From contig NC_091119.1 of NCBI RefSeq assembly GCF_040183065.1, positions 103,241,274-103,305,273 on the forward strand: DNA of 64,000 nt. Reading direction: 5' to 3'. The position numbers and the translations under genes were made by a program. Below the pieces are notes generated by a model. That model was not told the origin of the DNA. It was given only the letters and a program-made list of their open reading frames with translations, and searched no databases. The stretch is from Periplaneta americana. Taxonomy: Eukaryota > Arthropoda > Insecta > Blattodea > Blattidae. Shown in pieces: positions 47,672-48,103 of this stretch; the stretch's first letter is position 1; each line of letters opens with the position of its first letter.

Positions 47672-48103
47672 GATGAAAGAGCAGTGGAACGGAGAAAAAA
47701 TTTTCTCCGGCACCGGGATTTGAACCCGGGTTTTTAGCTCTACATGCTGATGCTTTATCCACTAAGCCACACCGGATTCCCATCCCGGTGTCGGATCGAA
47801 TCCTCATAGTTCAATTTCCACCTCATGGGTTCCCTCTAGTGGCCTGCCCTCTTTACTACGTCATAGATGTCTATGAACGTAGGACAATGTCCACATATAT
47901 GCGGAGGTGCACTCGTTATGAGTGACTAATTGGCCGGGAGCCGACGGATTAAGTGTCGTACATCAGCACGTAGAGCTGAAAACCCGGGTTCAAATCCCGG
48001 TGCCGGAGAGAATTTTTCTCCGTTCCACTACTCTTTATTCGTACGATGACGCAGAATATCTGCATGGAAATATCATATGTACTTCCGTACATTAAAATAA
48101 TAT
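47672..48103. mobile_element. Retroposon with inverted tRNA-like ends, 14-bp TSD
   Basis: Flanked by identical ATAAGTTTTGATCC at 47658-47671 and 48104-48117. Arms 47678-47752 and 47961-48036 are inverse copies; each contains GGGTTCAAATCCCGGTGCCG, a tRNA T-arm/B-box-like sequence, once in each orientation. The right end is A-rich (ATTAAAATAATAT). A 14-bp TSD fits LINE-driven retroposition, while inverted ends are usual for DNA transposons. A related element is at 62476-62845. Confidence 0.82.

Follow-up and report, generated by a model that had tools for sequence, protein, structure and literature searches.

The stretch of Periplaneta americana DNA analysed here (64,000 nt, NC_091119.1, forward-strand positions 103,241,274 to 103,305,273; hereafter the window) contains at 47672–48103 one copy of a large family of short interspersed elements (SINEs), whose insertions typically consist of two head-to-head partial copies of one tRNA-containing unit, only one of which ends in a 62-nt tail. 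We think it likely that this family is a non-autonomous, tRNA-containing SINE that is moved by Penelope-type integration. It is SINE-like in its build and Penelope-like in its working, and is filed here as a Penelope-type tRNA-containing non-autonomous retroposon. The initial annotation of the window, made from the letters alone, had described this copy as a retroposon with tRNA-like sequence in both inverted ends and proposed that its RNA could fold into a hairpin that hides or duplicates the RNA polymerase III (pol III) promoter; it is partly supported, in that the observation and the claim of an inverted family hold, whereas the mechanism does not.

A circularly repeating unit with two fixed ends

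The 20-mer that the initial annotation had offered as a probe for the family has 176 exact copies in the 3.23-Gb genome of 91 contigs, a one-base variant of it has 8,948 and a 32-mer from the tail has 13,200, with a backward-read control of 0 for all three, so that the original 20-mer marks only a small subset. The loci studied most closely, 85 in number, are the first 100 of the 176 listed 20-mer places (contigs C1–C8) after merging of neighbours, to which the window adds one. Alignment of 100 extracts gave a unit of 382 bp that repeats circularly and that, read in the direction of the tRNA, runs through linker and body (m1–213), the tRNA-like sequence (m214–285), a run of T, a point near m319 termed site A, and the 62-nt tail, which closes at site B near m380. 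The tRNA-like sequence scores up to 63 bits against the Rfam tRNA model in family copies, and some loci hold head-to-tail arrays of up to about three units (3.1 at L085, with a period of 382 and 99% matches). As tRNA, body and tail fill the 382 bp, a frame for a reverse transcriptase (RT) with a GIY-YIG domain is ruled out within the unit. The family also departs from a classical SINE in lacking a fixed 5′ tRNA start: the body lies 5′ of the tRNA and the arms end variably.

These loci and the window comprise 97 element groups, of which 71 are inverted, always antisense then sense, and 26 run in one direction; the family is therefore real and the inverted form its prevailing one, as the initial annotation had supposed. 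In 58 of the inverted groups site A bounds one side and site B the opposite one (A on the left in 34, B in 24); one has B at both ends (L025, doubtful), none has A at both, and 12 have a different end, for example from truncation or a later insertion. Put differently, among the 59 inverted insertions whose two ends could both be assigned, 58 pair site A with site B, 62 nt further on. The set of 58 used below leaves out the 26 one-directional groups, the 12 with another end and the single B/B case.

The inner geometry differs from copy to copy. Arms measure between 36 and 1563 nt, and at 72 inversion junctions the arms overlap by 1–11 nt in 50, abut in 6 and leave a gap of 1–22 nt in 16. Because inversion point and arm lengths vary in this way, we conclude that the inversion is made anew at each insertion, from fixed starts, and neither one master copy bearing a tRNA at either end nor a hairpin RNA as the mover is supported. 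The initial annotation had also allowed that most copies might carry only one tRNA-like end, making the inverted form a one-off; the full tRNA module is instead present in both arms in 37 of the 58, with at least 40% of it in both arms in 5 more, in one arm in 15 and in neither in 1. In 38 of the 58 an arm exceeds one unit on at least one side. Overlap of this kind, and arms longer than the unit, mean that a given stretch must be available twice in the template.

An exact target-site duplication (TSD) of at least 11 bp encloses 42 of the 58 elements, against 0 of 3306 mispaired flanks, and chance can thus be set aside as its source. The exact repeats measure 12 bp in 26 elements, 13 bp in 6, 14 bp in 7, 16 bp in 1 and 11 bp in 2, with shorter ones of 10 bp in 1, 9 bp in 6 and under 9 bp in 9; a looser count (at least 12 bp, one mismatch), which gave 55 of 97 groups against 8 of 291 controls, is superseded by this stricter one. 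Where the TSD fixes the ends (n=49), the first A base falls at m318–320 in 32 and the last B base at m378–385 in 41. The 26 sites with exact 12-bp repeats have C at −1 in 22 (p 3e-13) and G at +13 in 18 (p 1e-8), against a background of 0.18, so that the target, C[N12]G, is dyad-symmetric, with further A/T at −3/+3 and T/A at −5/+5.

The tail gives a second entry into the family. Among the first 100 of the 13,200 tail places, 20 pairs lie less than 1 kb apart, 10 of them minus-plus, 1 plus-minus and 9 on one strand, the last spaced by 380–386 in eight cases and by 765 in one; multimers and outward-facing pairs are therefore no artefact of choosing loci through the 20-mer. Three of the four places that head the tail list, a choice independent of body sequence, are inverted A/B elements, each enclosed by an exact TSD of 12 bp.

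Penelope-like elements of the same genome

A search for GIY-YIG domains gave 108 scored matches among 7,669 first-look candidates, and in the two Penelope-like families looked at, one end gave a GIY-YIG match (E 7e-7) and one open frame an RVT_1 match (2e-14). The ends of these families carry a hammerhead-like core, recognised by eye (CTGATGA, a stem, GAAA). A Penelope 32-mer has 169 copies, and a hand count among the first 100 listed found 30 close pairs, all minus-then-plus. Of seven short pairs that were read, six are enclosed by an exact repeat of 12 or 13 bp and have one end that stops about 100 nt past the core (89–101) and another that a tail of some 37 nt extends further (121–139). A full-length Penelope-like copy of another family, with an 811-aa open frame (L099, L088, L100; G000:C3:77267250-77271650), has an exact 12-bp TSD flanked by C and G, contains a 5′ piece in inverted orientation, and bears a tail, about 46 nt long, at just one of its ends; open frame and exact TSD together indicate that it is probably recent. 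The arrangement seen in the SINE, with a short end, a tailed end and a 12–13-bp repeat, thus recurs in 7 of the 8 Penelope insertions read, mostly with C/G flanks, although C and G are not both present in every one of the 7 with a TSD.

Two further observations concern these elements. Pairs of the Penelope 32-mer recur with the same 3376-bp spacing at two places 27 kb apart (G000:C10 18403469-18481617), which suggests a segmental duplication. A hairpin with a GUA or GUAU loop at site A occurs in the SINE and in one Penelope subfamily; it is weak in the other subfamily and we do not claim it.

A probable two-start mechanism and its alternatives

The multimers, the A/B ends, the TSD, the symmetry of the target and the signature shared with Penelope are observed in the DNA itself, while cutting of both strands and two internal starts are taken from the literature. 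The Anolis Penelope protein PAc, described in 2024, cuts and extends both strands and is predicted to form a dimer; its RT begins at two adjacent internal sites, and the genomic 'tail' of 30–40 bp is the stretch between them (PMC11167929). The part of that paper drawn on here reports no strand difference and calls the integration mechanism of Penelope little known. In a rotifer, a Penelope copy with direct pseudo-long terminal repeats (pLTRs) and one inverted pLTR has a 9-bp TSD, and a 31-bp tail is optional at one of the inverted pLTRs (PMC3846280). Cutting of both strands, together with two RT starts that bound the tail, explains the paired arms and the one-sided tail of the SINE, whose sites A and B would by analogy correspond to the two internal start sites of PAc.

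We infer that a Penelope protein moves the SINE, and the same holds for the choice among such proteins, the form of the template RNA and the role of the tRNA promoter. An RNA of more than one 382-nt unit, either a linear multimer or a circle, would be bound by a Penelope-like RT/GIY-YIG protein, and a symmetric dimer would act on a T.A.C[N12]G.T.A site, cutting its two strands with an offset of 12 nt. Each 3′ end would then serve as primer at an internal position of the RNA, so that one cDNA begins at site A and its partner at site B, which lies 62 nt further downstream. How far each cDNA extends would vary, frequently beyond a full unit, and the two would be joined at their stopping points, in many cases through microhomology of a few nucleotides. 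The expected product is a pair of head-to-head arms within a 12-bp TSD, of which only one arm bears the 62-nt tail. Two RNA units and an asymmetric dimer would account for the absence of A/A or B/B starts. On balance, and with more reserve than for the family assignment, we favour the view that Penelope-type machinery has captured this SINE, that its insertions expose an obligate two-start rule, by which a symmetric Penelope dimer cuts 12 nt apart and its halves start at different sites, giving a tailed and a tailless copy back to back in nearly every insertion, and that this rule is general for Penelope. The tRNA may drive transcription; the run of five or six T that follows it should stop pol III, and the template may thus be a read-through or a polymerase II RNA. 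A hairpin that hides the promoter is not needed.

Compared with published Penelope work, the near-exclusive pairing of A with B and the symmetric 12-bp target are new here. The kind of element is not wholly new, given the short non-autonomous Penelope elements described in Heliconius (PMC6685494) and the proposal that Penelope moves retrozymes (PMC7761336). The Heliconius elements are likewise non-autonomous and assigned to Penelope, with no structure given and no tRNA part mentioned in the passage on them (PMC6685494). Elements of the Penelope/Poseidon type share with the SINE the head-to-head partial copies, tandem units, one-sided tail and TSD, and differ from it in that the SINE has no open reading frame, shares no pLTR sequence with those sampled and lacks a canonical hammerhead core. 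Those of this genome also use the same target and TSD length (7 insertions with a TSD), whereas the SINE tail measures 62 nt against about 37 and about 46 nt, and the SINE has a putative tRNA-like pol III promoter. Nine SINEs of Blattella germanica resemble the family in their length of a few hundred bp, their TSD and a tRNA-like sequence that has A and B boxes (PMC9191728), but here the tRNA lies between body and tail and the insertions are two-armed; the word Penelope is absent from the main text of that paper. No paper on a Penelope-moved tRNA SINE was found in the open-licence literature searched.

Several observations weigh against movement by Penelope-type integration. Twenty-six of the 97 groups run in one direction only and 12 of the 71 inverted ones have another end; loci L001–L085 were all picked through one rare 20-mer, and the remaining one of the four tail places (L101) is one-directional with no TSD within the stretch read. 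The window copy has a 14-bp TSD without the C/G flanks, and one of the eight Penelope loci (L095) is without a TSD of the kind described. A comparison of the SINE unit with six Penelope 3′ ends (L086–L091) and one 5′ region (L099), from about three families, gave only weak matches at chance level, and no Penelope element with the SINE tail was found among them, for which reason we regard the link between SINE and Penelope as mechanistic. Finally, the hammerhead core CTGANGA is absent from both strands of the SINE consensus, while Penelope ends carry one by eye.

This last point bears on a possibility that is compatible with Penelope-type movement and that we hold to be rather unlikely, namely that the family is retrozyme-like, with a circular RNA made by a self-cleaving ribozyme and copied by rolling reverse transcription. 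Animal retrozymes are tandem repeats of 150–450 bp proposed to be moved by Penelope elements (PMC7229834, PMC7761336), and the tandem 382-bp units, with a period of 380–386, fall within that range; the non-LTR retrozymes of animals share with the SINE the short non-coding tandem units and the proposed dependence on Penelope (PMC7761336). The SINE differs from them in having a tRNA-like promoter and no canonical hammerhead core that we could find, and head-to-head structure is not described in the part of the retrozyme account drawn on here (PMC7761336). Scanning 7 tandem loci against Rfam at E values up to 5 brought up no ribozyme, a weak negative in that a like scan missed the hammerhead-like cores of Penelope. 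A hammerhead in the tail (UGAUGA..GAAA) is core-like but has A and not C at position 3, and is not claimed. The tail hairpins show at most one double change each, too little variation for a covariation test.

Twin priming on L1 RNA yields head-to-head inversions with microhomology at the junction. An ordinary SINE moved by a long interspersed element (LINE), with frequent twin priming producing 5′ inversions, would accordingly match the inverted form, the junction microhomology and the variable arms seen here. In twin priming, though, the second cDNA starts at random internal places, whereas here there are two fixed sites in 58 of 59 insertions; overlapping arms with a full tRNA in both (37 of 58) are not obtainable from one pass along an RNA; the target has dyad symmetry and a constant stagger of 12 bp; and the Penelope elements of the same genome show these traits. 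We therefore rejected this explanation as improbable. Still less probable, and likewise rejected, is a foldback or miniature inverted-repeat DNA transposon with long terminal inverted repeats: the inverted arms and symmetric target would suit it, but the ends are unequal, one being without the 62-nt tail, inversion point and length vary per copy, arrays reach about three units, and no fixed central sequence lies between the arms. Chance insertion of one SINE into another, in a genome rich in tRNA-like SINEs where nested copies occur, can practically be dismissed, given that one TSD encloses both arms together in 42 of 58 and that orientation and ends are almost fixed.

The window copy, other repeats and wider meaning

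The features of the window copy and of a second, related SINE are collected in Table 1.

Table 1. Features of the two related SINE copies in the window (window coordinates; m, position in the 382-bp unit)
Feature	Position	Strand	Basis
Left TSD, ATAAGTTTTGATCC, 14 bp	47658..47671	+	exact repeat; 11 bp reached by 0/3306 mispaired controls
Antisense arm: copy of the 382-bp unit begun at site A (~m317-320), through start of tail, tRNA and body	47672..47959	-	chained to consensus unit; right limit is where the alignment to it stops
Six-T run directly after tRNA (minus strand), candidate pol III terminator	47695..47700	-	read from the letters
Complete tRNA-like sequence, A and B boxes present	47705..47776	-	Rfam tRNA 55.1 bits, ARAGORN
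Body (M), with the 20-mer of the initial annotation at 47920-47939	47777..47954	-	borders approximate
Head-to-head inversion junction	47959..47961	.	both alignments to the 382-bp unit stop here
Sense arm: partial tRNA and tail, begun at site B (~m380)	47961..48103	+	alignment to unit
'Tail' D, 62 nt, from site A (48041|48042) to site B; this end only	48042..48103	+	A/B rule
Right TSD, ATAAGTTTTGATCC	48104..48117	+	exact repeat of the left one
Diverged related SINE with a single tRNA-like sequence (62499-62572)	62476..62844	-	nhmmer E 3.4e-13

The 14-bp TSD and the inverted arms of about 75 bp that the initial annotation had noticed are both borne out, the duplication being exact and the arms (47696–47752/47961–48017, 57 nt at 95%, and 47671–47699/48013–48041, 29 nt at 90%) merging into a single gapped alignment of 77 columns at 93.5%. 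T-arm sequence is likewise present on each strand. On the minus strand the Rfam tRNA model covers 71 of 71 positions and ARAGORN agrees, with A and B boxes that we take to be such from their usual consensus; on the plus strand the copy covers only 67% of the tRNA module, retaining the anticodon arm and T arm without the A box, so that the right arm provides no second pol III promoter. The element is AT-rich at its right end. RNA folding of the element gives a predicted −210.1 kcal/mol (z −14.9), a value reached by 0 of 100 shuffles. The 20-mer has one site in the window, at 47920 (up to 3 mismatches, no gaps). The sequence presumably resembles other cockroach repeats. Immediately to the left of the element, the stretch 47301–47500 ends, by eye, much as a repeat-encoded protein would at its C-terminus and passes into an (ATT)n run; it looks like the end of a LINE or other retroelement.

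A second copy with its own 14-bp TSD had also been proposed. The element at 62476–62844 is indeed a diverged relative, flanked by an exact repeat, AATATCAAAGAAAGG (62461–62475/62845–62859), that is 15 and not 14 bp long; Rfam and ARAGORN find only one tRNA-like sequence in it, and the repeat search found no inverted tRNA arms. Its right end has a 20-nt inverted pair (62779–62798/62830–62849, 95%) around ACAGATATTATTCTGT, which recalls the CAGA..TCTG hairpin of the first family's tail and may belong to a tail region of its own. Elsewhere in the window, inverted repeats lie at 8884–9115/9315–9545 (233 columns, 82% identity, 199 bp between), at 28389–28530/28976–29117 (142 bp, 94%, about 450 bp between; possibly a foldback or DNA element) and at 34728–34785/34877–34936 (60 columns, 90%).

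SINEs are usually tied to LINE partners, and a tRNA SINE running on the machinery of a third class of retroelements would, if the reading is true, widen that pairing rule. The 13,200 exact tail matches form a large natural record of the Penelope reaction, which suggests that the start sites known in vitro are used pairwise, one per DNA end, on a symmetric cut with a 12-bp stagger, and a SINE of this abundance could let the Penelope machinery be studied.
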